DNA of 64,000 bases, taken from positions 28,689,950-28,753,949 of the forward strand of contig OX424569.1 of assembly GCA_949152475.1 (NCBI GenBank). The letters run 5' to 3'. This document shows, in pieces, positions 15,801 through 57,100 of the stretch; position 1 is the stretch's first letter, and every line of letters begins with the position of its first letter. A program made the position numbers and the translations under genes. The notes under the pieces are model-generated. The model saw nothing but the letters and a program-made list of their open reading frames with translations, was not told the DNA's origin and ran no database searches. The DNA is from Terebella lapidaria. Lineage: Eukaryota; Annelida; Polychaeta; Terebellida; Terebellidae.

Positions 15801-17156
15801 TTTGTGGATAGAATCGAATAATCGAATAATTCAACAATATCAGAGGCAGAAAAAATATTACTACATATCAATACATGTGTACTTATAACAGTAACATCGG
15901 ATGTGACAACTTATGATGTGGATTGACAATTCATTCAAAAAACAAAATTTAGATTTTAAATACTTAAATAAACACATTTCATGTAATGAGTTCTAAACGT
16001 GTATAGATGTTTAATTTCTTAAATGCCCTCTATGTTTAATATCTAAATATCAAAAGCCATTTATCTTCTAAATAATATTTAGAAAATAAATGCCTTGTGG
16101 TGTGTGAAATCTAAACACATCAATGCCATTTAATGCCATGTAATGAGTTCTAAACGAAGAATGGCATTTATTACCTGCATGCCAATTAGATTATAAATGG
16201 ACTGACCAATTAATTGCTAAATACGTAGACACCGTTTATGTTAAGAACTCTGAGTACTACACATGGCATTTAAGGATTGATTGCATGGATCGTCATGAAC
16301 CTGGCATTGACCAGCTGTCCATTGACTTATAATGTAAACATAAAGGTAACAAATTCATGAATTTACACACTTCCAATCAACGTGAAACTTTGCCTTTCTG
16401 ATTGTTAGCCATCAAGGATTACTAACCGAGACTCTGTTTCTCACTAAGCAATGTTAAATTTGTTAAATTCATCGTTTTCATATGTCATTTTCCGACCTAT
16501 TTCTCAGTCTACAAAATACACTCCCAACAGGGCGAGCGAAAGGATTATGCTGTGCAGCAAATAGCTAGTGAGGCCAGTAAAACTCACAAGTGATAATCAC
16601 TCGGATGCACCGAGGTGTTTGGGATTATGAATGTTCAGCTCATTGTATTCATCTCACAGAAAGTATAGCCCCAGATATTCTCATTATTTTGACGACAACA
16701 AGGAATAAATATATGCAACAGCCAGTGCTTGTCAAACAGAACACTCGAATCTTCGTTTTGGTGAAACGTATAAAATTATTTATCTAATCATCAAATTGCA
16801 CAGCTTTCGTGATATCATTTATGAAACCATGTCTCGGTTCATCATCCCTGAGTATATGTGTGTGTGCTAGCCAAGTTTTAGGTCAGGGGATTGTACTGTT
16901 TGGGTGATTTTGTTACCTTTACTTTCACATTATAAGTCGATGGAAAAGTGCCTCAGTACAGTCACCGGTAAGTTACGTGCAATCACACCTTAATAGCCAA
17001 ATGTTGCTTAGATTATGAGCGCAGACAATCCAAACACATGAATATTTAAGGTTGAGACATTTAATATCTGACTGAATATAAGTAACAATCTATTACCACC
17101 AATACAATCAGATATTGCACAAAGATGTAGGCCTATTACTTTGAACATATGATCAG

Positions 17157-18051
17157 TACGGTGGCTCTAATATGACATAATAAATATTTTTTCCTAGAAT
17201 AATAAAAATTTTGTTGGGGGCCTTGGGAACAAAATATTAAATAATCTAATTGACGGGGAAAACATTTCTCCCGCGAGGTAAACTATTTTCCCTGCAGGGG
17301 AAATGTTTCCCTCGCGAGGAAAACATTTCTCCCGTGAGTTAAAATATTTTCCCTGCAGGGGAAATATTTTCCTTGCAAGGAAAACATTTCCCCGCGAGTT
17401 AAACTATTTCCCTGCAGGGGAAATGTTTCCCTCGCGAGGGAAACATTCCCCCGCGAGGTAAACTATTTTCCCTGCAGGGGAAATGTTTCCCTCGCGAGAG
17501 AAACATTTACCCCGTGGGTTAAACAATTTTCCCTGCAGGGGAAATGTTTCCCTCGCGACAGAAACATTTACCCCGCAGGTTAAACTATTTTCCCTGCAGG
17601 GGAAATGTTTCCCTCACGAGGGAAACATTTCCCCCGTGGGTTAAACTATTTTCCCTGCAGGGGAAATGTTCCCTTCACGAGGGAAACATTCCCCCGCGAG
17701 GTAAACTATTGTCCCTGCAGGGGAAATGTTTCCCTCACGAGGGAAACATTCCCCCGCGAGGTAAACTATTTTCCCTGCAGGGAAACTATTTTCCCTGCAT
17801 AGTTTTTGTCGCGGGTAAAACGTTTTCCTCGTGAGGGAAACATTTTCCTCGCAGAGAAATTAGTTTACCTCATGGGGAATACATTTTCCTCGCAAGGAAA
17901 ACATTCCCCTCACGGGGAAAATAGTTTTTCTCGTGGGCTAAACGTTTCCCCCGCAAATTAGATTATTTTAAACCTTCTCGGTAAAGTCCCCCAGAAAATT
18001 TTTATTATCGTAAATAAAAAAAAATTATTATGTCATATTGGAGCCACCGTA
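17157..18051. mobile_element. Complete foldback element (TACGG ends, 6-bp target duplication)
   Basis: The ends are TACGGTGGCTC at the left and GAGCCACCGTA at the right. They are flanked by the direct repeat GATCAG (17151-17156 and 18052-18057), which I read as the target-site duplication. The first and last 70-100 bp are AT-rich and mutually inverted (ATATGACATAATAAAT opposite ATTATTATGTCATAT). The interior, about 17260-17960, is a minisatellite of about 21-bp half-units whose cores are palindromes (CTGCAG, CTCGCGAG, CCGCGG). Toward the right end the units appear in the opposite orientation. No transposase is encoded, so it must have been mobilised in trans. Known foldback elements share the plan, but I cannot assign a superfamily. 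Confidence 0.8.
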
Positions 18052-18059
18052 GATCAGCA

Positions 18060-18205
18060 AATATTATCAATAACAACGGTGTAACAGTGGTCCGTGGTAT
18101 TCCGGGACATCCATGATTACTCCGGGACAGTCTATAGTATTTTCTTGCCGTTCTGGAGTGATCCGATTGATCCGGACAGTTTATCAAATTCTTTCATATC
18201 TCTGG
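18060..18205. other. Left flank of the large minisatellite
   Basis: Contains CCGGGACA, TTCTGGAGTGATCCG and TGATCCGGACAG, which loosely resemble strings just right of the array near 23965-24010 (CAGTCCGGGAGTGATC). The array may have grown inside an older repeat. Confidence 0.3.
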
Positions 18206-18209
18206 TGAA

Positions 18210-21200
18210 AGTATCCGGGGTATCCCTGGCCTTCACTTGTTTGTTGCTGATGTGTGGGAGAATCCGGGGCATCCCTCGCCTTCACTTGTTTGTTGCTGAT
18301 TTGTGGGAGAATCCGGAGCATCCCTGGCCTTCACTTGTTTGTTGCTGATGTGTGGGAGAATCCGGGGCATCCCTCGCCTTCACTTGTTTGTTGCTGATTT
18401 GTGGGAGAATCCAGAGCATCCCTGGCCTTCACTTGTTTGTTGCTGATGTGTGGGAGAATCCGGGGCATCCCTCGCCTTCACCTGTTTTGTTTGTTGCTGA
18501 TTTGTGGGAGAATCCGGGGTATCCCTGGCCTTCACTTGTTTGTTGCTGATTTATGGGAGAATCCGGAGCATCCCTGGCCTTCACTCGTTTGTTGCTGATT
18601 TGTGGGAGAATCCGGGGCATCCCTCGCCTTCACTTGTTTGTTGCTGATTTGTGGGAGAGTCCAGGGCATCCCTGGCCTTCACTTGTTTGTTGCTGATTTG
18701 TCGGAGAATCCGGAGCATCCCTGGCCTTCACTCGTTTGTTGCTGATTTGTGCGAGAATCCGGGGCATCCCTCGCCTTCACTTGTTTGTTGCTGATTTGTG
18801 GGAGAATCCGGAGCATCCCTGGCCTTCACTTGTTTGTTGCTGATGTGTGGGAGAATCCAGGGAATCCCTCGCCTTCACTTGTTTGTTTCTGATTTGTGGT
18901 AGAATCCGGGGCATCCCTGGTCTTCACTTGTTTGTTGCTGATGTGTGGGAAAATCCGGAGCATCCCTGGCCTTCACCTGTTTGTTGCTGATTTGTGAGAG
19001 AATCGGGGGCATCCATGGCCTTCACTTGTTTGCTGCTGATGTGTGGGAGAATCCGGAGCTTCCCTGGCCTTCACTTGTTTGTTGCTGTTGTGTGGGAGAG
19101 TCCGGGGCATCCCTTGCCTTCACCTGTTTTGTGTGTTGCTGATGTGTGGGAGAATCCGGGGCATCCCTCGCCTTCACCGATTTTGTTTGTTGCTGATGTG
19201 TGGGAGAACCCGGGGCATCCCTCGCCTTCACCTGTTTTGTTTGTTGCTGATGTGTGGGAGAATCCGGGGCATCCCTCACCTTCACTTGTTTGTTGCTGAT
19301 TTGTGGGAGAATCCGGAGCATCCCTGGCCTTCACTTGTTTGTTGCTGATTTGTGGGAGAATCCGGAGCATCCCTGGCCTTCACTTGTTTGTTGCTGATTT
19401 GTGGGAGAATCCGGAGCATCCTTGGCCTTCACTTTTTTGTTGCTGATTTGTGGGAGAATCCGGAGCATCCCTTGCCTTCACTTCTTTGTTGCTGATGTGT
19501 GGGAGAATCCAGGGTATCCCTCGCCTTCACTCGTTTGTTGCTAATTTGTGGGAGAATCTGGAGCATCCCTGGCCTTCACTTGTTTGTTGTTGATTTGTGG
19601 GAGAATCCGGAGCATCGCTGGCCTTCACTCGTTTGATGCTGATGTGTGGGAGAATCCGGGGCATCCCTCGCCTTCACTTGTTTGTTGCTGATGTGTGGGT
19701 GAATCCGGAGCATCCCTGGCCTTCACTCGTTTGTTGCTGATATCTGGGAGAATCCGGGGCATCATTCGCCTTCACTTGTTTGTTGCTGATTTGTGAGAGA
19801 ATCCGGGGCACCCCTCACCTTCACTTGTTTGTTGCTGATGTGTGGGAGAATCCGGGGCATCCCTGGCCTTCACTTGTTTGTTGCTGATGTGTGGGAGAAT
19901 CCGGGGCATCCCTCACCTTCACTTGTTTGTTGCTGATTTGTGGGAGATTCTGGAGCATCCCTGGCCTTCACTTGTTTGTTGCTGATTTGTGGAAGAATCC
20001 GGGGCATCCCTGGCCTTCACTCGTTTGTTGCTGATGTGTGGGAGAATCCGGAGCATCCCTCGCCTTCACTTGTTTGTTGCTGATGTGTGGGAGAATCCGG
20101 AGCATCTTTCGCCTTCACTTGTTTGTTGCTGATTTGTGGGAGAATCCGGAGCATCCCTCGCCTTCACTTGTTTGTTGCTGATGTGTGGGAGAATCCGGAG
20201 CATCCCTTGCCTTCACTTGTTTGTTGGTGATGTGTGGGAGAATCCGGAGCATCCCTCGCATTCACTTGCTTGTTGCTGATTTGTGGGAGAATCCGGAGCA
20301 TCCCTTGCCTTCACTTGTTTGTTGCTGAATTGTGGGAGATTCTGGAGCATCCCTGGCCTTCACTTGTTTGTTGCTGATTTGTGGGAGATTCTGGAGCATC
20401 CCTGGCCTTCACTTGTTTATTGCTGATGTGTGTGAGAATCCGGAGCATCCCTGACCTTCACTTGTTTGTTGCCGATGTGTGGGAGAATCCGGAGCATCCC
20501 TCGCCTTCATTTGTTTGTTGCTGATTTGTGGGAGATTCTGGAGCATCCCTGGCCTTCACTTAATTGTTGCTGATGTGTGGGAGAATCCGGAGCATCCCTG
20601 GCCTTCACTTGTTTGTTGCTGATGTGCGGGAGAATCCGGAGCATCCCTGGCCTTCACTCGTTTGTTGCTGATGTGTGGGAGAATCCGGGGCATCATTCGC
20701 CTTCACTTGTTTGTTGCTGATTTGTGAGAGAATCCGGGGCATCCCTGGCCTTCACTTGTTTGTTGCTGAATTGTCGGAGAGTCCGGGGCATCCCTGGCCT
20801 TCACTTGTTTGTTGCTGATTTGTGGGAGAATCCGAAGCATCCCTGGCTTTCACTCGTTTGTTGCTGATTTGTGGGAGAATCCGGGGCATCCCTCGCCTTC
20901 ACTCGTTTGTTACTGATGTGTGGGAGAATCCGGAGCATCATTCGCCTTCACTTGTTTGTTGCTGATTTGTGAGAGCATCGGGGGCATCCCTGGCCTTCAC
21001 TTGTTTGATGCTGATGTGTGGGAGAATCCGGAGCTTCCCTGGCCTTCACTCGTTTGTTGCTGATGTGTGGGAGAATCCGGGGCATCCCTTGCCTTCACCT
21101 GTTTTGTTTGTTGCTGATGTGTGGGAGAATCCGGGGCATCCCTTGCCTTCACCTGTTTTGTTTGTTGCTGATGTGCGGGAGAATCCGGGGCATCCCTCGC

Positions 21201-23935
21201 CTTCACCAGTTTTGTTTGTTGCTGATGTGTGGGAGAACCCGGGGCATCCCTCGCCTTCACTTGTTTGTTGCTGATTTGTGGGAGAATCCGGAGCATCCCT
21301 GGCCTTCACTCGTTTGTTGCTGATGTGTGGGAGAATCCGGGGCATCCCTCGCCTTCACTTGTTTGTAGCTGATGTGTGGGAGAATCCGGAGCATCCCTGG
21401 CCTTCACTTGTTTGTTGCTGATGTGTGGGAGAATCCTGGCCTTCACTTGTTTGTTGCTGATGTGTGGGAGAATCCGGAGCATCCCTCGCCTTCACTTGTT
21501 TGTTGCTGATTTGTGGGAGAATCTGGAGCATCCCTGGCCTTCACTTGTTTGTTGCTGATTTGTGGGAGAATCCGGGGCATTCCTGGCGTTCACTGGTTTG
21601 TTTCTGATGTGTGGGAGAATCCGGGGCATCCCTCGCCTTCACTTGTTTGTTGCTGATGTGTGGGAGAATCCGGGGCATCCCTCGCCTTCACCTGTTTTGT
21701 TTGTTGCTGATGTGTGGGAGAATCCGGGGCATCCCTCGCCTTCACTTGTTTGTTGCTGATTTGTGGGAGAATCCGGGGCATCCGTGGCCTTCACTTGTTT
21801 GTTGCTGATGTGTGGGAGAATCCGGGCCATCCCTCGCCTTCACCTGTTTTGTTTGTTGCTGATGTGTGGGAGAATCCGGGGCATCCCTGGCCTTCAACTG
21901 TTTTGTTTGTGGCTGATGTGTGGGAGAATCCGGGGCATCCCTGGCCTTCACCTGTTTGTTTGTTGCTGATGTGTGGATGAATCTGGGGCATCCCTCGCCT
22001 TCACCTGTTTTGTTTGTTGCTGATGTGTGGGAGAATCCGGGGCATCCCTGGCCTTCACCTATTTTGTTTGTTGCTGATGTGTGGAAGAATCCGGGGCATC
22101 CCTTGCCTTCACCTGTTTTGTTTGTTGCTGATGTGTGGGAGAATCCGGGGCATCCCTTGCCTTCACCTGTTTTGTTTGTTGCTGATGTGCGGGAGAATCC
22201 GGGGCATCCCTCGCCTTCACCAGTTTTGTTTGTTGCTGATGTGTGGGAGAACCCGGGGCATCCCTCGCCTTCACTTGTTTGTTGCTGATTTGTGGGAGAA
22301 TCCGGAGCATCCCTGGCCTTCACTCGTTTGTTGCTGATGTGTGGGAGAATCCGGGGCATCCCTCGCCTTCACTTGTTTGTAGCTGATGTGTGGGAGAATC
22401 CTGGCCTTCACTTGTTTGTTGCTGATGTGTGGGAGAATCCGGGGCATCCCTCGCCTTCACTTGTTTGTAGCTGATGTGTGGGAGAATCCTGGCCTTCACT
22501 TGTTTGTTGCTGATGTGTGGGAGAATCCGGAGCATCCCTCGCCTTCACTTGTTTGTTGCTGATTTGTGGGAGAATCTGGAGCATCCCTGGCCTTCACTTG
22601 TTTGTTGCTGATTTGTGGGAGAATCCGGGGCATTCCTGGCGTTCACTGGTTTGTTTCTGATGTGTGGGAGAATCCGGGGCATCCCTCGCCTTCACTTGTT
22701 TGTTGCTGATGTGTGGGAGAATCCGGGGCATCCCTCGCCTTCACCTGTTTTGTTTGTTGCTGATGTGTGGGAGAATCCGGGGCATCCCTCGCCTTCACTT
22801 GTTTGTTGCTGATTTGTGGGAGAATCCGGGGCATCCGTGGCCTTCACTTGTTTGTTGCTGATGTGTGGGAGAATCCGGGCCATCCCTCGCCTTCACCTGT
22901 TTTGTTTGTTGCTGATGTGTGGGAGAATCCGGGGCATCCCTGGCCTTCAACTGTTTTGTTTGTGGCTGATGTGTGGGAGAATCCGGGGCATCCCTGGCCT
23001 TCACCTGTTTGTTTGTTGCTGATGTGTGGATGAATCTGGGGCATCCCTCGCCTTCACCCGTTTTGTTTGTTGCTGATGTGTGGGAGAATCCGGGGCATCC
23101 CTGGCCTTCACCTATTTTGTTTGTTGCTGATGTGTGGAAGAATCCGGGGCATCCCTCGCCTTCACCTGTTTTGTTTGTTGCTAATGTGTGGGAGAATCCG
23201 GGGCATCCCTCGCCTTCACCTGTTTTGTTTGTTGCTGATGTGTGGGAGAATCCGGGGCATCCCTCGCCTTCACCTGTTTTGTTTGTGGCTGATGTGTGGG
23301 AGAATCCGGGGCATCCCTCGCCTTCACATGTTTTGTTTGTTGCTGATGTGTGGGAGAATCCGGGGCATCTCTGGCCTTCACTTGTTTGTGGCTGATGTGT
23401 GGGAGAATCCGGGGCATCCCTCGCCTTCACATGTTTTGTTTGTTGCTGATGTGTGGGAGAATCCGGGGCATCTCTGGCCTTCACTTGTTTGTTGCTGATG
23501 TGTGGGAGAATCCGGGGAATCCCTGGCTTTCACCTGTTTTGTTTTGTTGCTGATGTGTGGGAGAATCCGGTGCATCCATCGCCTTCACCTGTTCTGTTTG
23601 TTGCTGATGTGTGGGAGAATCCGGGGCAACCCTGGCCTTCACTTGTTTTGTTTTGTTGCTGATGTGTGGGAGAATCCGGAGCATCCCTGGCCTTCACCTG
23701 TTTTGTTTGTTGCTTTTGTGTGGAAGAATCCGGGCCATCCCTGGCCTTCAATTGTTTGTTGCTGATGTGTGGGAGAATCCGGGGCATACCTGGTCTTCAC
23801 CTGTTTTGTTTGTTGCTGATGTGTGGAAGAATCCGGGGCATCCCTGGCCTTCACCTGTTTTGTTTGCTGCTGATTTGTGGGAGAATCCGGGCCATCCCTG
23901 GCCTTCACTCGTTTGTTGCAGATTTGTGGGAGAAT
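18210..23935. repeat. Large 49/54-bp minisatellite array
   Basis: More than 110 head-to-tail units read TCCGGGGCATCCCTCGCCTT, then CACTTGTTTGTTGCTGATG and TGTGGGAGAA (49 bp). A 54-bp variant has CACCTGTTTTGTTTGTTGCT in the middle (five extra bases); it is rare on the left and dominant from about 21.05 kb on. A higher-order duplication of about 1.05 kb is visible: 21.05-22.05 kb matches 22.06-23.10 kb, with offset 1,014 bp at the left and 1,053 bp at the right. Long frames on both strands are explained by unit length: 54 is divisible by three, giving an 18-residue repeat, and three 49-bp units give 147 bp. Confidence 0.92.
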
Positions 23936-24519
23936 CCGACTCCGCACCGTGCTTTATCCTTGGCTCATCCAGGCAGTCCGGGAGTGATCGGTGAATATTC
24001 CATACTCTCCCTTGGCACGTCCGGTCGAGGCTGTTCTGTATTGTGTCATGTGGCTTATCTTTGGGGCCCGTACACCAACTGTGTATCAGTAACCAAGGTT
24101 CATCCTGGCAGTCCTGGAGTCGTCTGCAAGCAATTCTTTGGAATGTTTGTGGAACACATACTATCCGTGGCTGCACTGTAGTTCATCCAGGAAACTATGA
24201 CTGCAACATTGTAGATTCGTTATTTTGGACTTTTGATTAAGTCCAGTGTGGTTCGGGGAATTGTTCGTCGAGTGAGTCGATATGCCTGAGCACAGACACG
24301 GACATTACAGAATTGGGTCTCACGCTTGGACAACGGCATATGCTTCAAAAAGCAAGGGACCAACTCGTCATTGTCGATGAACGTCGATCAAATGTAACCC
24401 AACGAGAGAGTGAACCGACCACATCGGAGTGACAGCCTCTTCTCCCAAACATCACGACACGCAATATTCGTCATCAAGCCGCAGCACTTACAAGCGCAGG
24501 TGAGCAGTTTGATAGCCTG

Positions 24520-25266
24520 TTGGGGGAAGCAAGAAACAATGACATTGCAATGCCCCAAAGTGATTTCCCAGGAACAATAGCCAACTCTAGTCTACCCGGG
24601 GTTTCTGCTAGTGTAATCACGGCCCTCGACCCACGGGCCTCTCTGACGGTCAAATCACACTGCAAAAAGGTCGTGCATATCACAGACTTTTTGAGTGCCA
24701 AGGCGAAAAAGAAGATACAAAGCCGGAAACGGGACGTCCTCCTGGCTCGGGAACACGAGGGTGTGGAACGCCTCGTCCTCCAAGAAGACAACCGACACCC
24801 CTACGCTGGAATATCCGTTGATGATTGGTCTGCAGCAAATACTCGAGTATTGAACAGGCTGCTAGCAACAGGCGATTTGAGCAGATCACAAATCGAGTAT
24901 TACCTGACGTATACTGCAACTGTCATGGATTTTGTGCCGAACTATGAATGGAACTCCATTCTGGACTTTGATTACCAGTACCGTGAACAACAGGCGGCTC
25001 AAGGATTCCAGTGGGGCTTCATAAGTCCATTGATGGAGCTACAAATACTGACCCCAAAACAGCGCCAACAACACCCAGCCCACCATAACACAGTACGGCA
25101 GAATCGCTCCCCAGTCGCTGAAGAGTGTCGTCAATGGAAGGCGAATAACCGCTTCTGTCGTTTTGGAAGCAATTGCCGCTACCAACATCCACAGTTACCC
25201 ACACTATTGGACAGGTCAGACAACCAGAGACGCTTCACTCACGTACCGCAGTCAAAAAACTTATAG
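24520..25266 (+). CDS. gag-like protein region of the DIRS/Ngaro element
   Basis: About 248 residues. The middle is helical and acidic/aromatic (DWSAANTRVLNRLLATG onward). Near the C-terminus is a zinc-knuckle-like cluster with spacing C-x9-C-x5-C-x3-H (about residues 200-222), similar to the CCCH-type fingers found in DIRS-group gag proteins. It is followed by overlapping RT-region sequence, as expected for this group. Treated as part of a fossil element. Confidence 0.65.
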   Translation: MGEARNNDIAMPQSDFPGTIANSSLPGVSASVITALDPRASLTVKSHCKKVVHITDFLSAKAKKKIQSRKRDVLLAREHEGVERLVLQEDNRHPYAGISVDDWSAANTRVLNRLLATGDLSRSQIEYYLTYTATVMDFVPNYEWNSILDFDYQYREQQAAQGFQWGFISPLMELQILTPKQRQQHPAHHNTVRQNRSPVAEECRQWKANNRFCRFGSNCRYQHPQLPTLLDRSDNQRRFTHVPQSKNL

Positions 25267-26852: not shown

Positions 26853-26856
26853 TGAT

Positions 26857-27801: not shown

Positions 27802-27831
27802 ATTTATTCACTACTCCTACTCTTGGATTTG

Positions 27832-29540: not shown

Positions 29541-29542
29541 TA

Positions 29543-33200: not shown

Positions 33201-36200
33201 TATTTGAGTAGTGGCCTTGTATCCGAATACAGTGACTTCGTATCAGAATATAAGGTCATGTGCTTATATGTGAACGAAAATGATTTGACAATTCGACATT
33301 CAATGCGGAAATATTATTTAGTATATCGACCTTACGGTGGCTCATTACCGCCAATTACGTTCGTGTATTTCTCACCCCATTTATAATTACCACCTCACAA
33401 TATTCACCGCGTTTATAATTTCCACCCCGTTCATAATTATCACCTCAGAATTATCACCGCGTTCATAATCTCCATCCCGTCTATAATTATCACCTCACAA
33501 TTTTCACCCCGTTTATAATTTCAACCCCGTTTATATTTATCACCTCACAATATTCACCGCGTTTATAATTTCCACCCCGTCTATAATTATCACCTCAGAA
33601 TTATCACCGCGTTTATAATTTACACCCCGTTCATAATTATCACCTCAGAATTATCACCACGTTTATAATTTCCACCCCGTCTATAATTATCACCTCACAA
33701 TTTTCACCCCGTTTATAATTTCAACCCCGTTTATATTTATCACCTCACAATATTCACCGCGTTTATAATTTCCACCCGTTTATAATTACCACCTCAGAAT
33801 TATCACTGAGTTTATAATATCCAACCCATCTATAATTATCACCTCACGATATTCACCGAGTTTATAATTTCCACCCCGTCTATATTTATCACCTCAGAAT
33901 TATCACCGCGTTTATAATTTACACCCCGTTCATAATTATCACCTCAGAATTATCACCGCGTTTATAATTTCCATCCCGTTTATAATTATCACCTCACAAT
34001 TTTCACCCCATTTATAATTTACATCCCGTTCATAATTATCACCTCAGAATTATCACCGCGTTTATAATTTCCACCCCGTTTATAATTATCACCTCACAAT
34101 TTTCACCCCATTCATAATTTCCACCCCGTCTATAATTAACACCTCAGAATTATCACCGAGTTTATAATTATGATTTGATCACAATCATTACTAGGTACAG
34201 AATACTAATTGGTGCATTGAGTTTTAGTATGAACACTCTTGGTATTCTTTGTACCGTATTGACGCGCATATAAGGACATGTCCTCATATATGAGCACTTC
34301 CTTATATCCGGACATAAGAACATGTCCTTATATGAGAACTTTCTTCAGAAACTGCCTGTAAAACATCTGACCCACATATAAGGACATTTTGCATGTCGAT
34401 GATTATAAGTTGTGAAAAATGATGCAACTAGAACACATGTAGCACGTACCACTACGTATACCATGTTCAGCATATTAATCTCGAATATTCTTGTGGTCTT
34501 GAAATTAAATTGTATTCATGTTGAATGTATGTGTTATAGACCTACAGGGAATTGTGTGTCACTCAAAGGGACAAAATTAATTGCGCCAATAATTTAATTA
34601 AGCCCCAATCCTTCAGTTTATAGTAGTGTATATAGTGTCCTTATATATGAATAAACGGGGTGTTCTATGTCTGGATAAAAGTCGTCTCCTTATAAGTGAA
34701 CATGTTTTGAATTTTCGATATATTCTGAAAATGCACAAATCCACATATAAGGACCTGTCCTTATATGCGCTTCAATGCGGTAGCTATAGAGGCGTTTTCC
34801 ATAAGCATCTTGTTGCTCTTGGGCTGCATATGTTCATGAAGTGAGGTGATAATTATAAACGGGGTGGAAATTCTAAACGCGGTGATAATTATAGATGGGG
34901 TGGATATTTTGAACTCGGTGAATATAGTGAGGTGATAATTATAGATGGGGTGGGAATTATAAACGCGGTGAATATTGTGAGGTGATAATTATAGATGGGG
35001 TGGAAATTATAAACTCGGTGAATATTGTGAGGTGATAATTATAGATGGGGTGGATATTTTAAACTCGGAGAATATTGTGAGGTGATAATTATAGATGGGG
35101 TGGAAAATATAAATGCGGTGAATATTGTGAGGTGATAATTATAGATGGGGTGGAAATTATAAACTCGGTGAATATTGTGAGGTGATAATTATAGATGGGG
35201 TGGATATTTTAAACTCGGTGAATATTGTGAGGTGATAATTATAGATGGGGTGGATATTTTGAACTCGGTGAATATTGTGAGGTGATAATTATAGATGGGG
35301 TGGAAATTATAAACTCGGTGAATATTGTGAGGTGATAATTATAGATGGGGTGGATATTTTAAACTCGGTGAATATTGTGAGGTGATAAATATAGATGGGT
35401 TGGAAATTATAAACGTGGTGAATATTGTGAGGTGATAATTATAGATGGGGTGGAAATTATAAACTCGGTGAATATTGTGAGGTGATAATTATAGATGGGG
35501 TGGATATTTTAAACTCGGTGAATATTGTGAGGTGATAATTATAGATGGGGTGGATATTATAAACTCGGTGAATATTGTGAGGTGATAATTATAGATGGGG
35601 TGGAAATTATAAACGCGGTGAATATTGTGAGGTGATAATTATAGATGGGGTGGAAATTATAAACGCGGTGAATATTGTGAGGGGATAATTATGGACGGGG
35701 TGAGAATACACGAACGTAATTGGCGGTAATGAGCCACCGTACGACCTAGACCAATTTGAGCCTACATGTACATATTCCCCAATCCCAGTGAAAAAAAATT
35801 CGAACATGCATGAGATCGTGGGCGTAGGGGTTGGGCTGCATCGTCATTGCTAGTATACTTGGAGTGACGAGTGGCCTTAGAGTGTGGACTTATATATAAG
35901 AGTGTGGACTTATATCCGAATATAAGGCAATGACCGTACATGTATATCTATGAAATTTCAAAGGATGTTGTTATTTCGCACATAAGGTCATTATGACCTT
36001 ATATGCGCTTCAGGGCTCCGTTTCACTAAGATAGCGAGCTCGTTATATAAAGTCCTCCTTGAAGTTTTACCAATGGAAATAAAAACACAAAAATAACTAT
36101 GACAACATATTGTTAACGATGGATACAGCGAACATTTTTAACGATGGAAATCTTAGTGATTGATAAACCGTCGTTATTAACGAGGATTCTTTAATTTAAC

Positions 36201-41830: not shown

Positions 41831-42029
41831 TAGTGATTTTAACGGCGATTATGTCAGATAGCACACCCCCAGGGGTTCATAACGAGAAGATTACCGAGTG
41901 TGAAGTCATACATGTACTCTAGGCTGCTTGTACCAAGGGTTATGTATACATTGAAAAGGCCACAGTTTGGCCTGTTGTTGAAGGTGTCACACTGTGGAAC
42001 AGTTATTATTATTAATGATACAAATTGTA

Positions 42030-42735
42030 AAATCGATAATAAGTGAGATATTAGCCATTTTGTCCTGTGACTTTGAAAATGAGGTCAAAGGTCAAATTCA
42101 AGGTCATGGCAATAATCTGCATATATCATTTCCTATATGTCCATAACTGATTCCTAAGCTGTAAAGTCGATAACAAGCAAGATATTAGCCATTTTGTCCT
42201 ATGACCTTGAAAATGCCGTCAAAGGTCAATTCAAGGTCATCAGAATATTCAGCATATATCATTTCCTATATGTCCACAATTGATTCCTAAGCTGTAGAGT
42301 CGATAATAAGTGAGATATTAGCCATTTTGTCCTGCGACCTTGAAAATAATGACAAAGGTCAAATTCAAGGTCATGACAATAATCCACATATATCATTTCC
42401 TATATGTTCATAACTGATTCATAAGCTATAAAGTCGATAACAAGCGAGATATTAGCCATTTTGTCCTATGACCTTGAAAATGGGGTCAAAGGTCAAATTC
42501 AAGGTCATCAGAATATTCAGCATATATCATTTCCTATATGTCTACAATTGATTCCTAAGCTGTAGAGTCGATAATAAGCGAGATATCAGCCATTTTGTGC
42601 TCTCACCTTGAAATTGAGGTCAGAGGTCAAATTCAAGGTCACGAGAATATTCAGCATATATCATTTCCTATATGTCCACAATTGATTCCTAGTCTCTAAT
42701 CTCAATATTAAGTGAGATATTAGGCATAATGTGTC
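42030..42735. repeat. Tandem repeat of about 134 bp, five to six copies
   Basis: Units start TCGATAATAAGTGAGATATT at about 42032, 42169, 42300, 42434, 42568 and 42703. Each contains two ACCTTGAAA/AAGGTCA blocks and TATATCATTTCCTATATGT. Confidence 0.8.
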
Positions 42736-44005: not shown

Positions 44006-44012
44006 TGGTTTC

Positions 44013-45078
44013 TACGGAAGCGTATTGCTATCAAGGGTGTAAAAAATATTATCTCGTACGTACGACTTATATCTCGTACGTACGACTTAATAACTCATAC
44101 GTACGACTTATTAACTCGTACGTATGACTTGTTATCCCGTACGTACGACTTAGTAACTCGTACATACGACCTATTAACTCCTACGTATGACTTATTAACC
44201 CGTACGTACGACTTATTAACTCATACGTACGAGTTAGTAACTCGTACTTATGAGATACTAAGTCATACGTATGAGTTAGTAAGTCGTACATACGACTTAA
44301 TAAGTCGTACATACGACCTAATAAGTCGTATGTATGAGATATAACTCATACGTACGAGATAAGAAATTTTACGCACATGATAATAATAATTAATTGCAAG
44401 CTTTTATATAGCGCTTCTCCATGTACAACATGCTCAAAGCGCTTTACAATTATTACCCCTGGCAGACCTGTTCATTCCGACACATTTTCAACCTCCCGGG
44501 AGGCATACAGCTGTAACTTAGGCAACCATCTCTGGTGCACATACAGTATTCATACACATTGCCATCTCTGTCTATAGCCAGGTACCCATTTTACTGATGG
44601 GTGAAACAGATCCCCCAATGAAAGTCTTTCAGCGCCGGCGCCAAGGATTGAACCCGGTACCTCCCGCACTCAACCCTGACGCCTTAACCAATTGATAGCA
44701 ATACGCTTCCGTAGTGAAACGTATTGCTATCAAGTGTGTAAAAAAAATGTATCTCGTACGTATGACTTATATCTCTTATGTACGACTTATTAACTCGTAC
44801 GTACGACTTATCAACTCGTATGTACGACTTAATAACTCGTACGTATGACTTAGTATCTCATTAGTACGACTTACTAACTCGTACGTACGAGTTAGTAAGT
44901 CGTACGTACGAGTTAACAAGTCGTACGTACGAGTTAATAAGTCGTACGTATGACTTAGTAAGTCGTACGTATGACTTAATAAGTCGTACATACGAGTTAA
45001 TAAGTCAAACGTACGAGTTAGTACGTCGTACGTACGAGATACAAATTTTTACACACTTGATAGCAATACGCTTCCGTA
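44013..45078. mobile_element. CGTACG-palindrome foldback element with three end sequences
   Basis: The ends are TACGGAAGCGTATTGCTATC and GATAGCAATACGCTTCCGTA, flanked by the direct repeat GGTTTC (44007-44012 and 45079-45084). Two array blocks (about 44045-44360 and 44750-45050) are made of about 21-bp units of CTCGTACGTACGACTTATTA, turning into the inverted form GTACGAGTTAATAAGTCGT half-way through each block. At about 44700-44730 an inner right end abuts an inner left end (GCTTCCGTAGTGAAACG), so the structure looks like a dimer or one element inserted in another. A SINE lies in the first half. No transposase. The tyrosine/aspartate-rich open frames across it follow from the repeat. Confidence 0.8.
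44380..44693 (-). mobile_element. tRNA-derived SINE
   Basis: On the minus strand it starts TGGTTAAGGCGTCAGGG (A-box-like, about 44675-44691), followed by GGTACCGGGTTCAATCC (B-box, about 44644-44660). That spacing matches a class-II tRNA such as Leu or Ser. The body contains AAAGCGCTTTGAGCATG and AGCGCTATATAAAAGC, a string seen in many marine-animal SINEs, and it ends in a TTATTATTATCA-type tail. It lies within the right terminal repeat of the first half of the foldback element. Confidence 0.6.
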
Positions 45079-45084
45079 GGTTTC

Positions 45085-46265: not shown

Positions 46266-46268
46266 TGC

Positions 46269-48112: not shown

Positions 48113-48119
48113 AATGTAA

Positions 48120-48610
48120 ATGTACATGTATGCATGTTCGCGTGACGCTATACAGAAATCTGAGTATCCTGTTTACGTGAAATTACGGTACCGGGCGGCC
48201 GTTGTCATGGAGTCGCGTTGTGATATCTCACAGATCCAGTCTCGTTGTTTGAATCTCATCCACGATACAAAAAGACTGATAAATGTCATCTAGTTGCCGT
48301 GTCCATGTTACATACTCGAATAAAAATTGCAATAATCGATTGAAGAACGCTCGCGAAACCATATTGCGAAACGGTGCTTCGCAAAAAAAAAAAAATCACT
48401 GAGCGGAAAATTTGCTCCCAGGTCGCTAGGGGTTTCCTGTCTGAAAAAAAAAACTTCCGGTCGAAACTCGCAGAGATGAAAATTATGATCATAGCTAGTT
48501 GGTACTATCTTTAGTTTCTGCTGCTCTGGTGTTAATTTCTCGGACATACAATACCATTAGACGCAGTTCGGCGGGCTTCGCGCGCCTCGCTGCGTTAATA
48601 ATTGTGTCAT
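48120..48610. other. No feature recognised
   Basis: Mixed AT-rich sequence without a convincing frame or repeat structure. Confidence 0.3.
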
Positions 48611-48615
48611 TATTA

Positions 48616-48850
48616 ATTGCTGCTCTACTTCAGATCTTTTCGCAATACCACCAACAGTCATTTCTCCAACTATTTCGGCCACATTTATCATATGAATCAT
48701 AGGTGATCACTATTTTTCTCCATATTCACAACACACCTGCTTCTTGATGTTACCTTCCCTAAAAAATCAAGGGCTTCCCGGAAAGAATCAGTGGCTTTCC
48801 GGAAAGAATCAAGGACAATTCACGGTAAAAATCTCCTCACGCATGGGCAA
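48616..48850 (-). repeat. Dispersed repeat family X, copy d (inverted)
   Basis: Parallel to copy b: TTCGCAATACCACCAACAG, CCACATTTATCAT, CCCGGAAAGAATCA and the end GGTAAAAATCTCCTCACGCA. Confidence 0.55.
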
Positions 48851-48998
48851 GCTTCTCGTCCTCAGTGTTTTTGTATGTCGCTTTGCACCGATGTTCAAGT
48901 AAACAAGCAACACAAAATCATTCGACCTACAGTTAGAGAGTACGTCAAAATACCCAGATAAGAGTGCAAAAATAATGACATGTGAGATGACAAGTAGG

Positions 48999-49472
48999 TG
49001 TAGGATTCGGCGACCCCACGATAAATAGGTATACCCCATTACTGGAGTGTCGCCGAATGTCTTATAAACCTGTCCGCACGTTCACGCTACAACCATGGTG
49101 TCACTACTAGGTAGCCACCACGTCATAACGCTACAGTGCTTTCCCCTTTCGGAGAGACCTCGTCCCCGAGGTCAGCTATATCCCACTGCCCAGTCACATC
49201 ACAGCACTGAAGATCAAGGGCACCGCAGCTACCCGATTATGTACACATACTTGGCTGCGATGTGAATCTCAGTGAGGGGCTGACCCCAGGAATGACGCCG
49301 AGAAGCCCCAGTGGTTCGAAAGGTACGGTACCAATGTAGGGTTCGGCGACCCGAACCCGAATTAGGTATACCCCATTACTGGAGTGTCGCCGAATGTCTT
49401 ATAAACCTGTCCGCACGTTCACGCTATAACCGTGGTGTCACTACTAGGTAGCCACCACGTCATAACGCTACA
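48999..49472. mobile_element. Small direct-repeat-bounded (TRIM-like) element, fossil
   Basis: Two near-identical direct repeats of about 137 bp (48999-49135 and 49335-49472) begin TGTAGG and end GCTACA, the TG...CA form of LTRs, and surround about 200 bp of non-coding interior. The flanks show a 4-bp direct repeat, TAGG, just outside each end. I did not recognise a primer-binding site or polypurine tract, so the TRIM assignment is provisional. It encodes nothing. Confidence 0.5.
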
Positions 49473-49474
49473 TA

Positions 49475-49985
49475 GGCGTTAATAGCAGTGCAAATATCCA
49501 TTCTCTAAACAGTCGGACGAGCATCGCCCTGGAAGGCAAAAACGAGCGTTCACCCTTGGTTTTGCACTTGTATCGTTGCACAAAAGATTCTGAAAAAAAA
49601 TGCAGGCCTACTCGTGGCCGAATGCACTGACTGCGTGTTTCGTGAAGTGGCAAGAGCGAAGCCGGAAACGTGCGATTTGTCACAGGCACCGTGGTACCGT
49701 GGCCGGTTTATCAATCTTCAACTTTCATTTGCTACTTCATTCTTCAACTTCGTGATACAATGAGGAGCATACCTTCTGACTACATTAAATTATAGTGCGG
49801 CAGGCCAAGGCCATACAATTAGCAAGGTTTTTTTTTATTTGGCCAAAATAATATTTAACTCAAAATTCACTATTTATTCCACACTAAGTGCAATTGTGTC
49901 ACGTATATTATATTATTACTTAATATTTCTCTAATGGCTTGGGATTCCTACCGTATACAGTCATAACTAACTACAGTATTTCTTT
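49475..49985. other. No feature recognised
   Basis: No frame, repeat or splice-flanked segment that I can support. Confidence 0.3.
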
Positions 49986-49989
49986 AAAA

Positions 49990-50640
49990 GTGATCCCCTT
50001 AATCAAATAAAGATTTAATTGAATCAATAATTCTTACCTACAATACATAAATTTAGTGTAGGTTCTCAATTTTGCTCTCGAAGTATGAATTTACCTTCAC
50101 AGAACACTTTTCACAGTCAGACGTTTCTTTGTTATACTTTGAAAGATGAACCCAGAATCCCCTGATCTACACTTTTAGATTCTCAATTTTGGTTTATACA
50201 AATTCAGAAGCTTTCCATTCTTGCTCGTCCATTTGTAGCAATTTTTTTCTGACAAATATCAATTTCACAACATGTTTTGTTATCATATACATTGTTCATA
50301 CCAATTGAATAAAGTTTGTGTTTGACATCTTCACAGCAGCTATGGTCATGTGATTGGTATCCATACAAAAAGAATTTTCGGCAGTCTATCCTTTCCCATC
50401 TTGATTAAATGATTCCAGAATCTTAACACATTCAAATATGTTCTGAATTTACACGGTAACCACCCAATTTCCCCTTGTGGTGCAGGTACTGCTGGTAAAT
50501 TGTGAACCCAAAAATAGTGACGAATTGCTTTGTTTTGAACCATTTCTGCATGATTTAATTTGTTGAACACCCGAATACTACTCCCATAATCTAACACTGA
50601 AATAACACCAAAACTGTACAAGTTGTGAAATGTCTTTCAA
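49990..50640 (-). pseudogene. Decayed non-LTR retrotransposon (LINE) fragment, 3' part of the RT ORF
   Basis: The 91-codon minus-strand frame at 50346-50621 reads ISVLDYGSSIRVFNKLNHAE, then VQNKAIRHYFWVHNLPAVP and GEIGWLPCKFRTYLNVLRFW with MGKDRLPK. This is the region after the RT palm in CR1/Jockey-like LINEs (the Y-G-S, Q-N-K-A, G-W-L-P and R-L-P blocks). Similarity continues downstream in another frame (LYSIGMNNVYDN), with stops and at least one frame change, so it is a fragment of a dead copy. The upstream catalytic RT domain is not seen. Confidence 0.65.
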
Positions 50641-50649
50641 CATTTTTGA

Positions 50650-53600
50650 CAGTTTTGACATCATGTTTGACATCGTGTTCACGAGTTCTGACGTGTGAAC
50701 ACTTCAAATAAGAGTTCATCTCATTACACGAAATTAAAATCGTTTCTAATAATACCATAGGCCAATACTGGGGCCTTGATTCTCCGCAAGACAGAACACG
50801 CTGCTAGCGAGAGCTTTTTTCTCGATGGTTTAAATACATATACATTATTACAAGACCATTTATGTGGCTCCACCCAGTGCATCCACCTGGAACATATCTG
50901 TTGAATATATCATATTATAAATGTTATTGGAAGGTATGGCCTTGGGAAATATGCACCTATGATATGCACCTATGAGGATGTGATTGTGCTTCAATGCACC
51001 CAATGGCGAATTGAAGCCTTTTGGGAGAGCCTGCAATATAATTTGAAGAAAGTGTTTCGGTTGGGTAAACCCACGACCCAAACAAAGATGTTTGGATGTG
51101 GGACATAGTTATAATGTAAGGCCCCATGCAGAAGCCTTACATTTACCTGTGATGCGGTGAATTCTGAGTTAGACTGTCGTGGATTGGGAATGTAATGTGA
51201 AAATGTCATTACAAGAGTTAAGAATATAGTGTTCGGCTGATGCGAGCTTGTGCAGCGAAAGAAAACTTGGCAAACATGAAAGCCTCCATAGATCTACATA
51301 TGTATTACAAACATAGTATTATGTCATTTTCATATGTGCATAGCTCATGTTATATGTATACTACACATGTGTACCATGTATGTTAACATTTACACAAATT
51401 ATATGAGCCTAGGCTGTAAACTGTATGAATTATATGTAAGGGTCTACAACAGGGCCGCTGGGGACACTATTGAGTCACTTTTTTTTATTTTTTACCCTAG
51501 CTCTTCCAACATCAGTCATATTTTATGGAAGCTCTGTACAAATATGTTACTTTTCAAACTCTTTAGACGATGCATTTCAGTTGTCACTTTTTCGTCGCAT
51601 GTCAGAGCTGTGAATCTTTGGTATCAATCGTCAATTTGAAATTCACAAGAATTAATATGATATCATTTTCACAAGCACAGTACAGGGTGTTATAGTCGGT
51701 TTACTCCGATGTTTTTCAAGGCAGATATATGAAAGAGCTTAGCTCACGGCTCAACTGTTGGTCTGTTGGTATCGTTTTCAATAACGATCCAACCACTAAC
51801 CAATGTCTGTGAAGTTATACAATATATTATACTCTGATTTTCCTAACTTCTGAAATGCTTTTTCATTTAATTGTTGTTGCATCAGAAAAAAAGTAAAGAG
51901 AAGAGCCATTTGTTATTGCTTTGCTAGTTAATTAAGTAGGCCTACATGTACGCTTGTGATTAAAAAAGTGGCTGTACATATCTATAGGTCATAACGTACC
52001 CAAAATATCGTTATGATGTGGTCAAATATTGCACACAAAAAAACAATACCATAAACCAAGTAATGCCTCCACGGCCTAAACATTACATTTGTTGTGTACA
52101 TGTGTCAATCCAAGTAACAATTCCCACGGAGTGAAGTGCTGAGAAAACATCTGCTGACGTCACCAGACATAACGGGATCCCGGAGGGAGAGCGCCGACTA
52201 CGTCAGAAGGCACGAAGATGTATCTATATACATCTATAGATATGTTCTTCTTTGTTTGTTATATGGAGAATAATGAGCAATTTAATCCAATGAATTATGG
52301 TAATGAAATGAAATATACGTTATGATATCAATACACCCATTATGAGAAGAGGGGATGAAAGTCCAAAATATTTTTTTCAGGGAAGAGGTTTGGGGGAGGT
52401 TGGAAATGGTTGGAAACCGTTAAACCCTTCGAAATAATAATATGATGATAGGAACACTATCGTTGAGCATGTTTGATGGGTCACAACTCTTGACGTGTTG
52501 TATTCAAAGCCTGAAACCAAAGAGTTTACCATACCAATGCTCAGCGGAATGAAATACCATGGTAATGAAGATCATTATATCGGAATAATTCATTTCCCGA
52601 CATGATTAGTAAACATCGTACACCTTTTTGAGAAACCTTGGCTTTAGCTTGAGGGTGTTACGAAGTTAATATAATTCACTGAACGACCATCTTGTATGTA
52701 GATCTATAAACATTGTATTACTTAGTAATAAAATATGAATCAGAGCAAGTCGCGCTAGTGCATATATGTGTATGTACATGCGCGACTTGCTGGGGTTTAC
52801 AGTTTGTGCATATTACATGAAAGACGGATGTATGGAAACAATAGAAAAAAACTGTGTTTTAAAGATCACTTAACTTGGCGATATAATTGTAGATATTTCG
52901 GTACCAGGATGAAGTCATGTACACATGTAATATATGATGATAATGTGTATGCTATATAAGGTAAACACCTGTCACATCGCGTGAAATCCTACAATACAGA
53001 GACATATGTATTTATTGTCGCTCAATATGGTATAAACTATTCCCATTCCATAAACATATCAACACAAAATATAAACATCAAACAGCTGGCTACATGTATC
53101 ATACATCAAACGTTTCCATAACCATACAAATTTAGGAACAATCTGCCAATCTGCCAATTGATCTCTGGGCAAGGCATGCATTGAATCGCGTGCGAGTTTT
53201 GACATCATAAGCCATCAATGATATGGATTTCAATATTAAATATCGCACATTCCTACAAGTTCATATCGTTTTGATGATTACAATCCCAACTTAATGTCAT
53301 CTGTGTGCAATAATTTCACGAGAAACAAAAAAAGCGCCGTGGCTCAGTTGCAATGCGACATACGCTGTGCTGGGCTGCAGTTAAAATACAATAATTTGAT
53401 TTTCGATTCTACATCTGTAGATTTTTATTCGAAGCAGACCCGCGGGGCTCTTGAAACAAGCTGTTCCAACACAGCTGTACAGGAATGATTCCCCCCTTGT
53501 TTGCCTTTTGAATAATATTTCTGCCAACTGCTGCAAAGCGGCTCGGACGGTAGGTCGGTATGCCACTATCCAATATATCCAACTTCAGGGAGCCATATGA

Positions 53601-53815
53601 CATGTGTTGGCTTCCATGCATTCAGCTGACAATGATCTGATGATAGACCTATATTGGATATAATGCACATGATGTTCAGAACAGTGCATATTTCAAAAAC
53701 ACTGCGGCAGCAGCTCTGCTCATCAGCACTGAATTTGATCGTTAATATTCATTCTTTGGGCATTGGTCTAAATTGAACTGGATACCTTCTTGAGTTGTAA
53801 ACTTACTTTTAATTA
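50650..53815. other. Repeat-poor stretch, probably 5' part or upstream intron of the membrane-protein gene
   Basis: Upstream exons of the gene at 53820-57179 should lie here or beyond the window's recognisable exons, but none could be identified. A perfect 11-bp-stem hairpin (GCAAGTCGCGC...GCGCGACTTGC) lies at about 52746-52789. Confidence 0.3.
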
Positions 53816-53819
53816 TTAG

Positions 53820-54134
53820 TTCGAAATTCCACACGAGCGAACGAATGACGCTGTCGTTGCCTTGGAGATGGTTATGATAGAACATTTACAGACAATAGAA
53901 GTGAAGCCAGCGAAGGAAAACTTGGACTCTATTCCTGAAATGGATTCGCTCATCGATGATTGCAGCATGGAGCTCCGGAGGTATGACTGGAAGCAACAAT
54001 TTGGCTGGTGTCACCGCATGACGCCGGTACTGGTCACGCAATCACTTCTCGTGCTTCATGTCTTAAAAACCGGAGACGTTTTCTTCGATGTCACGGGAAT
54101 TGTCAACTTCAATCTCGTGCTTCTTCTGTGTGTG
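53820..54134 (+). CDS. Membrane-protein gene, internal exon A
   Basis: Acceptor TTACTTTTAATTATTAG, donor TGTGTG|GTACGT. 105 codons, phase 0 at both sides. An ATG at 53868 could instead be a start if no upstream exon exists. Confidence 0.55.
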
Positions 54135-57100
54135 GTACGTATGGAAACAGGCCACAACTATACTTATCCTGAATAAATAAACATACAGGAAAGATAAATG
54201 CCTATTGTACTATAAACCAACTTATTGAATGACCCCAACCCCCGTGCGGTAAATTAACGCTTATTACACGTTTATATCAGGCTACGTCATTATTCTGTCA
54301 GTAGATGTAATGTATTTTATTCGATTTGGGAATAACGGTCTATAATAACAAAAACGGACAACATCAGAAACTATTCATATAGTGGCATATGTAGACCATA
54401 GGCGGATCCATGTCACATCTCCCCCCCCCCCCCCCATATTCATGACTCATCAGAGCCAGGATGCTAGCACGGTGCATGGAGAAGGGTTCTGGCACTCCCC
54501 CGCCCCCCCCCCCCCCTCCCTTCTCCCCCATGTTCCTGGATCCGCCCATGTAGCCTAGAATAGTCTATGCAATAAAGTTATAACGTTACCTGACGCCACC
54601 TTCAGTAACATAGGCACTCGGACTTTGAAATCAATAAGAATCCAGCGCTCATCTTTGAATAGATAATCAATTTCGTGTTCACTACCATGACATGACGATG
54701 AGTTTTATTATAATAGATAATTACGTTACCTGCAATCAATATAAATGTGTGATATTTTCATATTCCAATATCATATGAGATTCAACAACCATTTCGTTCA
54801 ACCGTTGACAATACGCACGTCGCAATGCGAGAAAAAAATGCACGCAAAGTATGAAGCTACATGAAATAACCCACAATGCACCAGTTGATAACTTGATATT
54901 GCGTCAATATTGCATTTATAGACTGTAATGTGTACTGATTCTCATACCGAATTCAATTATAATACTTGATAGCTGCTCACAAGTACAATTCACAGTATAC
55001 AATATAGCCTATGATATAATTAGACCTACTATATACTAATGCGTGGGCATTCGTATCGGATTTACCTTAGCACGGAACTGGCAAAAAGTAATTGCAAAAA
55101 GTTCACCGAGTGACATCAGTGGTTAGATAAATCGATGACGTACAATTTAATCAAATTAGCCTATATGTTTTTTTTTCCATGGCGAACAGTAAAATCAGAG
55201 GCTCACTCGGGCGTACTTTTTTTCTTTTACTATTCTCAAATTATTCTTCCCATACTATAGTCTCCAACTGTCAATAAATGATCCATCCATCATATCAGCT
55301 TGAAAGTAACCAATATCTATTCATTCATTTCAGACGTCCGCGCATCTCCTGATCTGGGAGATAATATGCGCAGCAAGAAACACAGCTCGTGAGAAATTGA
55401 ACGCCCTCGATGGGTACAATAACCAGATTCTTCAAGATATGACACAGATGACAAGAATATGCATATCCGACTTGAAAACTGGTCTGCAAAAATCGAAGAA
55501 CGGCCAACGAAATCTTGAGACAGATGTGGAAAAAGCTGCCGGTCTGAAACGTAAGACGTCTGTGGGTACACAAACGCCGACATCGCCCCCTGTCAGCAAG
55601 GAAGAAAACCTAGAGAGAGGACTTTCTTCGTTTTCACTGTCGTCATCGTCGTCGTCGATTTGTGTGATACCTGACGCATCCTCAAGTGATTCGACATCTT
55701 ATTGTGTATTGTCGTCCTGTTCGTCTCTAGGATCGTTATATTCGTCATCGTTTTCAGGAACTTTCAGTGATTCTTGCTCTAGCGCAGCCGACACGGACGA
55801 TAGTTATTCGCCGTTGCCAGACGACAGACAATTATCGACATTTGCACCTTCAATTTCAAGCGGGACAGATGACTTAGGATTAGGACTAGACACGGCACAA
55901 AAATCGATTAAATACTTCGACGGTGGCAATGAATCGATTAATTCGAATCGATTTCCCGGCATTCCTATGGCTGCGGCAGACGGCCACGTGCAGCGAACGG
56001 ACGAAGTATCAATGGTGCCACGTGCGCCGAATGTAAACAATAGACTCAGGCTGTTACAGGATGTCTACATCGTCGTTGATATATTCAAATCGCTCGTCTG
56101 TTTGGATGCACTGCGACATTTGTGGTTTTATTACAGTTTATACTATTGGAGGATAACCGTATTCCAAATGGCAAGCGGTTTCAATATTATATTATCACAT
56201 CTTCACTAGATCTACTGCGGCTCATCTATGACATAATTTAGATTTTTATTCAGGATATTAAAAAAAATATATTTGTGGTCCCCAGAAGAATATACTAAAT
56301 AATGTATTTCACGGGGTAAACTATTTCCCCCATGAGGAAAGCTATTTCCCCTGCGAGGAAAACGTTTCTCCCACGAAGAAAACATTTCCCCTGCGAGGAA
56401 AACGTTTCCCCCATGAGGAAAACTATTTCCCTCACGGGGAACACATTTCCCCGCAAGAGGAACGTTTTCCCCGTGCGAGAAACTATTTCCTGTGGAGGAA
56501 ATGTTTCTCCTGCAAGGAAAACGTTTTCCTCGCGAGGAAAAGGCTTCCCCACGAAGAAAACATTCCCTCCTGTGAGGGAAACTATTTTCCCCGTAAGGGA
56601 AATATTTCCCCTGTGAATAAAACGTTTCCCCCTCGAGGAAAACATTTCAGGGTAAGCTATTTTTTTCCCTCACAACAGAAACGTTTTTTCTCGCAGGGGA
56701 AACGTTACCCCAACAGGGAAATAGTTTCCATCACGGGGAAAGCGTTTCCCTCATGAGCGAAACGTTTTCCCCGTGAGGTAAATAGTTTTCTCGCAGGGGA
56801 AACGTTTTCGACGCAGGGAAAACATTTCCCCCGTGTTTCCTTTATGGGGAAATCCTTTTCCCTGCCAGGTAAATAGTTTTCCTCGCGAAGGAAATAGTTT
56901 TCCCCGTAGGGAGAACATTTCCCTCGCATTTAGTGTATTCTTCTGGAAACCACCAAAAATATTTTCATTGTCCTAAATAAAAATCTAGATTATGTCATAT
57001 GAGCGACCGTAGAGATCTACCATATTTTCAAAAAGTTTGAATGATTTATTTCCAATGAATGCGTTTCATCAATGAGTTAACTGTTTTCTCTTTTTATCTC

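Follow-up and report, generated by a model that had tools for sequence, protein, structure and literature searches.

Foldback elements with minisatellite arms in the Terebella lapidaria genome are very likely non-autonomous derivatives of IS3EU/GingerRoot-type transposons

Four foldback elements in a 64-kb window

The 64-kb stretch of Terebella lapidaria DNA analyzed here (C16:28689950-28753949 in a 761.6-Mb genome assembly; hereafter, the window) contains four foldback elements, E1 to E4, which are very likely non-autonomous derivatives of IS3EU/GingerRoot-type DNA transposons, probably moved in trans. The same genome contains large elements whose ends are of the same type as those of E1-E4, with 6-bp duplications, inverted arms of approximately 20-bp units, and an integrase-type DDE transposase. 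An earlier, sequence-only reading of the window considered the four elements to be a possibly undescribed family whose source of transposase was open. The presence of coding relatives with such ends in the same genome argues against that description; its mention of IS3EU as a candidate agrees with their ends, 6-bp duplications, and integrase-type transposase.

The four elements are real inverted-repeat transposable elements, of which E1, E2, and E3 are complete and E4 is decayed (the elements, and the arrays of E1 and E3, are given without strand). E1 (17157-18051) ends in TACGGTGGCTC, is flanked by GATCAG at 17151-17156 and 18052-18057, and contains a minisatellite array (17260-17799) of near-palindromic units, as determined with Tandem Repeats Finder (TRF) and self-alignment. 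E2 (33333-35741) ends in TACGGTGGCTCATTACCGCC, with CGACCT duplicated on either side, and its 50-bp units, each containing sub-units of about 17 bp, form a left arm on the plus strand (33367-34169) and an inverted right arm on the minus strand (34881-35707). E3 (44013-45078) has the end TACGGAAGCGTATTGCTATCAAG, GGTTTC on either side, left and right arrays (44053-44357 and 44753-45037), and an additional internal end near 44714. E4 (56213-57011) has ends TACTGCGGCTC and TACGGTCGCTC and is flanked by TAGATC and GAGATC. The arm periods according to TRF are about 20 and 61 bp in E1, 50 bp in E2, 21 bp in E3, and 20 and 40 bp in E4, and the arm units are near-palindromic in self-alignments.

Base-by-base reading of the flanks upholds the 6-bp target duplications that had been claimed for all four elements in three of them (E1, E2, and E3, all exact); the duplication of E4 is imperfect, with 5 of 6 bp matching. 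The first 20 bases of the inverted ends are identical at 19 or 20 positions in E1, E2, and E3, and at 12 in the worn E4. The shared TACGG-type end can be read directly in each element, with TACTG at the left end of E4. A longer end had been assigned to three elements, but only E1 and E2 have the 11-bp TACGGTGGCTC without mismatch on either side; E4 departs from it by two mismatches on the left and one on the right. E3 has TACGG in common with TACGGTGGCTC, followed by its own sequence.

The window was also scanned for TAC/TAT-ended inverted pairs that match at 12 or more of 15 positions and have an exact flanking duplication of k bases. This yielded 34 pairs at k = 6, one at k = 4, and none at k = 5, 7, 8, or 9. 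The count at k = 6 is inflated because it includes pairs internal to the arms of E2 and E3: the 12 pairs listed are E1, E2, E3, and nine within those arms. E4 was missed because its duplication is imperfect. Consistent with the earlier statement that the elements encode no transposase of their own, none of the listed matches to Pfam rva_4, an integrase core that we take to be tied to IS3EU, falls within the window (150 of 246 candidates scored).

Target duplications and empty sites across the genome

Genome-wide ends were counted as exact matches in forward and reverse orientation, with the same pattern read backwards as a control. TACGGTGGCTC occurs 1551 times (767 + 784), compared with 107 (55 + 52) for its control. 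The longer ends all have control counts of zero: the E3-type end (23 bp; 271 + 307), the E2-type end (30-bp pattern; 126 + 108), the E1-type end (25-bp pattern; 70 + 67), and the end of a 10.3-kb coding family described below (23 bp; 164 + 152). Among 100 listed places with E1-type ends, 52 are plus-strand ends. For 37 of these, a facing minus-strand end lies no more than 1.1 kb away, and no back-to-back arrangement occurs within 5 kb.

Facing pairs were then compared for duplications. Fifteen pairs of TACGGTGGCTC less than 5 kb apart, taken from 100 listed places, have an exact 6-bp duplication in ten cases, 5 of 6 bp in three, and none in two (L013 and L017). Similarly, of 20 E3-type pairs on C1, a selection rather than every listed pair, 15 have an exact 6-bp duplication, compared with 0 of 380 mismatched left and right pairs; an exact duplication of 7-10 bp is present in 0 of the 20. 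In three of the five E3-type failures the end used was at an internal junction, which E3 also has. Exact duplications also flank two larger E2-ended pairs (14.6 and 10.6 kb). A third pair with E2-type ends, of 33.8 kb (C2:40787812-40821596), has no matching duplication and is therefore probably two unrelated ends. Thus, the 6-bp duplications proposed from the window are also found at most of the further copies compared.

Additionally, empty sites were sought in the same genome for 16 elements, each query consisting of the two flanks of an element with a single copy of the duplication between them; 40 of 3928 and 40 of 178 candidates were scored, and ten elements (other than E1-E4) were included in one search only. 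The joined flanks of L009, a 4.66-kb element, give an uninterrupted match of 120 bases with identity reaching 100% (C12:19596301), and those of L011 match without interruption at 100% (C15:10376573). Junction-spanning matches for E3 are present in at least 39 places at 85-98% identity, and E1 has one empty site (C9:33452953, 94%). For the remaining 12 elements (E2, E4, and ten others) none was found among the candidates scored. The empty sites are paralogous and lie in repeated DNA; they are not alleles. Together with the duplications, they show that insertion duplicates 6 bp of the target, and, with the inverted ends and minisatellite arms, they bear out the original view of these structures as real foldback elements. 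With duplications at most copies and empty sites present, neither of the refuting conditions set out in the sequence-only reading holds.

These results also bear on whether the direct repeats are due to chance, with the structures being palindromic minisatellites formed in place. The near-palindromic arm units are compatible with such an origin, as local rearrangement could yield inverted arms. However, it is contradicted by the exact duplications (15 of 20 E3-type and 10 of 15 TACGGTGGCTC pairs, compared with none of the 380 mismatched ones), by the dispersed copies with conserved ends of 23-30 bp, and by the empty sites. This explanation was rejected on the mismatched-pair control and the empty sites, and we give it practically no credence.

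Transposase-coding relatives in the same genome

Two published marks of IS3EU guided the search for a transposase. Complete IS3EU families, as described in passages of PMC10045372, always have TA..TA termini and usually a 6-bp target-site duplication, and ends of the form TAYGG..CCRTA are described for rust-fungus IS3EU in passages of PMC12730594. At least 133 matches to rva_4 are present in the genome (best 1.1e-69). Two coding copies, C12:16210198-16220545 (10,348 bp) and C1:52942706-52953024 (10,319 bp), are 99.4% identical end to end, and the identity begins and stops at TACGGTGGCTGATATATGCCATA. Each is flanked on both sides by its own 6-bp duplication (AGAACC and CTATGG, respectively), has inverted minisatellites of approximately 20 bp directly inside its ends, and contains an rva_4 transposase within them (1.3e-35; matches at C12:16219143 and C1:52943566). 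The near-identity of these two 10-kb copies suggests recent movement. A second coding family is represented by a 19,902-bp element (C1:12384421-12404322), the ends of which are exact TACGGTGGCTC. It is flanked by ATTCGC on either side and has an arm unit of about 21 bp; by coordinates, it spans a stop-free rva_4 match at C1:12400268 in a 337-aa open frame. These TACGGTGGCTGATATATGCCATA and TACGGTGGCTC elements largely answer the earlier question about the source of the transposase.

One end was mapped at several additional transposase loci: L064 (TACGGTGGCTCCGAATTGCC), L040 (TACGGTGGCTTAGATCTGCC), L071 (TACGGTGGCTGTTATCTGCC), L065 and L066 (TACAGTGGCTTATTTGTGCC, beginning TACAG), and L070 (TACGGAAGCGTATTAGGGCC, of which the first 14 bases are the same as in E3). 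Ends were placed by eye at L068 (TACGGAAGAGGATTAGGGCC) and L039 (TAGGGAAGCTTATTAGGGAC, beginning TAGGG). Arrays with a period of 20, 21, 22, or 41 bp lie inside the single mapped ends, except at L071, where no array was found in the stretch examined. No end was recognized at L067, L069, and many of 30 rva_4 loci within 1.5 kb on each side. Overall, the ends of coding elements are of the TACGG kind, mostly TACGGTGGCT, and the arm sequence varies among coding lineages with a period that stays near 20 bp or a multiple of it; the 50-bp unit of E2 is exceptional. Because the unit varies even among the coding lineages, the arms do not appear to be modules that are replaced freely, contrary to the sequence-only reading.

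Fourteen transposase frames were aligned. D222 and E264 are invariant and D163 is nearly so, and these three are the predicted catalytic residues on our reading of the alignment. All 14 frames match rva_4 and eight also match rve; a profile of the alignment against PDB sequences returned nothing at E values up to 1. L030 (C5:20699110) and L031 (C2:51160381), which are among the strongest rva_4 matches in the genome, have only 22-23% identity with the first transposon sequence in the alignment and could be host genes or belong to a separate lineage. Searches of 14 control genomes with the rva_4, HECT, and PF03175 profiles gave no match in any of them; these genomes are probably prokaryotic, and the result was given no weight.

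Several observations weigh against the assignment of E1-E4 to these transposons. No transposase-coding copy was found with exactly the E1, E2, or E4 end, and the closest E1-type end among those listed is 29.5 kb from an rva_4 match. Both ends were seen in two coding families only. Some ends deviate from TACGG, namely TACAG at L065/L066, TAGGG at L039 (by eye), and TACTG in E4. None of the 14 transposases has a match in 10,000 interior bases of a 10.6-kb E2-ended element (C1:97680324-97690940), and the duplication is missing without evident reason in 2 of 15 TACGGTGGCTC pairs and 2 of 20 E3-type pairs. Furthermore, the superfamily name rests on the ends, the duplication length, and the integrase-type domain. 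For each window element, a partner can be named at the level of lineage only; E3 is nearest to the L070 and L068 families.

The interior of the 10.6-kb element (L118, C1:97680395-97690394; duplication GAACAA) has a gag-like frame with a CCHC zinc knuckle, a 147-bp tandem repeat, and a 131-aa frame with a near-unchanged second copy 4.5 kb further. In our reading of the sequence, this recurring frame appears retrotransposon-like. The frames of the 4.66-kb L009 are all repetitive, and no rva_4 match lies inside it among those listed.

Relationship to other transposon groups

Polinton/Maverick elements carry a protein-primed DNA polymerase B and have ends of another kind; Dada elements have a Dada-type transposase and duplications of 6-7 bp. 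Either of these superfamilies might move the elements described here, in which case the likeness to rva_4 would be convergence. Polintons resemble the present elements in having 6-bp duplications and an integrase-type enzyme, which is kin to retroviral integrase, and the duplication length of Dada also fits. Yet the rva_4 elements share their duplication length and arm design with the foldbacks, and they have the TACGGTGGCT end. The genome does contain polymerase B (PF03175), but the closest position is 54 kb from an rva_4 position, and none is within 50 kb (65 and 110 positions compared, respectively). Polinton was rejected on this distance. The transposase found inside such ends is of the integrase type (no search was aimed at Dada), and movement by another 6-bp-duplicating superfamily is very improbable.

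TU elements of sea urchins, which have 8-bp duplications and units of about 15 bp, are set apart here by description. They are similar to the present elements as foldbacks of a marine invertebrate with long inverted repeats (TU is cited in PMC4079207). The FB, Galileo, and Tetris elements of Drosophila likewise have long inverted repeats of tandem units, mostly without a transposase, according to passages of PMC4079207. According to the same passages, most described foldback elements are placed in the Mutator group, with Galileo assigned to P, which raises the question of whether the T. lapidaria foldbacks belong to Mutator as well. In contrast, Tetris, in Mutator, has duplications of 8-10 bp and units of about 220 bp (PMC4079207, same passages), whereas the duplications here are 6 bp. 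Furthermore, the ends match those of an integrase-type element. Mutator was rejected on duplication length, as none of the 20 pairs is exact at 7-10 bp, and we consider membership in that group extremely unlikely.

The resemblance to IS3EU/GingerRoot is closer. TA..TA termini, as TAC...GTA, are present in E1-E4 and both complete coding families, and TAYGG..CCRTA is present in E1, E2, E3, and the same two families, with exceptions in the left end of E4, L065/L066, and L039 (by eye). The 6-bp target duplication is also found at the coding copies, and an integrase-type DDD/E transposase lies within the ends of the 10.3-kb copies and, by coordinates, of the 19.9-kb element. According to passages of PMC10045372, IS3EU/GingerRoot transposases lack an HHCC zinc motif ahead of the catalytic core. 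In passages of PMC8268682, two oyster satellites are classed as IS3EU-like and foldbacks appear in the references only. Two features differ from IS3EU as described in the passages cited: the inverted minisatellite arms of approximately 20-bp units, present here even in coding copies, and a HECT-type gene, where fungal members carry TET/JBP and alpha-kinase genes (passages of PMC12730594).

A HECT-type gene beside the transposase

In the 10.3-kb element, a frame that lies on the minus strand and downstream of the transposase is similar to the end of the HECT domain (Pfam, 2.8e-7) and has a weak PDB match to UFD4 (E 0.04); in both copies this exon is inside the element ends. A 449-aa frame has no significant Pfam match, and its tentative reading as a HECT N-lobe is based on a motif. 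Genome-wide, 99 HECT matches represent 60 loci. For 26 of these, one of the 113 rva_4 loci lies no more than 10 kb away, compared with 0.18 expected under random placement. Twenty-five of the 26 are tail to tail with the transposase, on the opposite strand and 1.4-7.9 kb downstream; the remaining one is upstream on the same strand. The 26 cases are not independent and form roughly 16 groups by near-equal scores (counted by eye). Most of the 113 rva_4 loci have no HECT match, and the association is not claimed for all families because many rva_4 loci are fragmentary and the exons are short.

We regard the HECT-type gene as probable cargo, of benefit to the element within its host. Alternatively, it could be a host gene or a separate repeat that lies near the transposons by coincidence. 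The 34 HECT loci away from rva_4, the many rva_4 loci without a HECT match, and the repeated counting of family copies are in keeping with coincidence; the convergent arrangement of 25 of the 26 at a limited distance downstream, the expectation of 0.18, and the exon within the ends of both 10.3-kb copies are not. Coincidence is therefore considered unlikely. As cargo, the ligase may act on host defense or on the stability of the transposase. A ubiquitin-ligase gene recurring beside an animal transposase would parallel the accessory genes of fungal IS3EU and would suggest counter-defense or regulation. Nothing on HECT or ubiquitin genes with transposons was found in the literature searched, judged by titles.

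More broadly, an animal lineage of IS3EU could be marked jointly by inverted subterminal arrays of approximately 20 bp, in coding and derived copies alike, with a fast-diverging unit and a retained TACGG, and by a convergent HECT E3 ubiquitin-ligase gene across many families. We hold this joint description with about even confidence. Neither minisatellite arms in coding copies nor HECT cargo was found described in the papers searched.

Proposed mechanism of movement

In the mechanism that we propose, the transposase would bind the TACGG end, and probably also the subterminal repeat units, pair both ends, and join them to target strands 6 bp apart, with gap repair leaving the 6-bp duplication. 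Movement would be by cut-and-paste rather than copy-out. Small elements that retain the ends and a repeat array could thus be mobilized in trans. The arrays would alter in length and sequence by slippage and by exchange between arms, which may be why each lineage has its own unit. Units of approximately 20 bp correspond to two helical turns and are possibly a transposase-binding array that co-evolves with the enzyme. Because minisatellite-armed foldbacks are here tied to a defined enzyme and defined ends, questions about the arms, such as whether they are binding arrays and how the two arms come to change jointly, become testable. The elements also provide a source for many dispersed minisatellites of approximately 20 bp in this genome.

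Other repeats and duplications in the window

The window contains a tandem segmental duplication (2408-9723 and 9722-17681), the longest parts of which are 99.2% identical. It gave rise to a truncated twin of E1 (9199-9723, plus strand) that consists of the left end and array only and is preceded by GATCAG. The junction at 9722 falls within the E1 minisatellite, with GAAACA common to the breakpoint, and a foldback arm seems to have been the breakpoint of the duplication. Another remnant, E5 (11129-11761, minus strand), has a single end, TACGGTGGCTTATTTCTGCC, at 11761 in minus-strand reading and an array with periods of 20 and 61 bp; its left end was not recognized. The two duplication copies differ at 11245-12156, a stretch found only in the second copy and missing from the first, which includes the right end of the E5 remnant and has one breakpoint within the E5 minisatellite. 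Conversely, the second copy lacks about 354 bp that the first copy has (6641-6994), and no inverted repeat was recognized by eye in the first 40 bases of either end of this segment. Finally, a 134-bp tandem repeat at 42026-42691 resembles, by eye, the insertion-site DNA of L009, and a minisatellite of about 114 copies of a 49-bp unit occupies 18213-23938 and has a strong A/T strand asymmetry.

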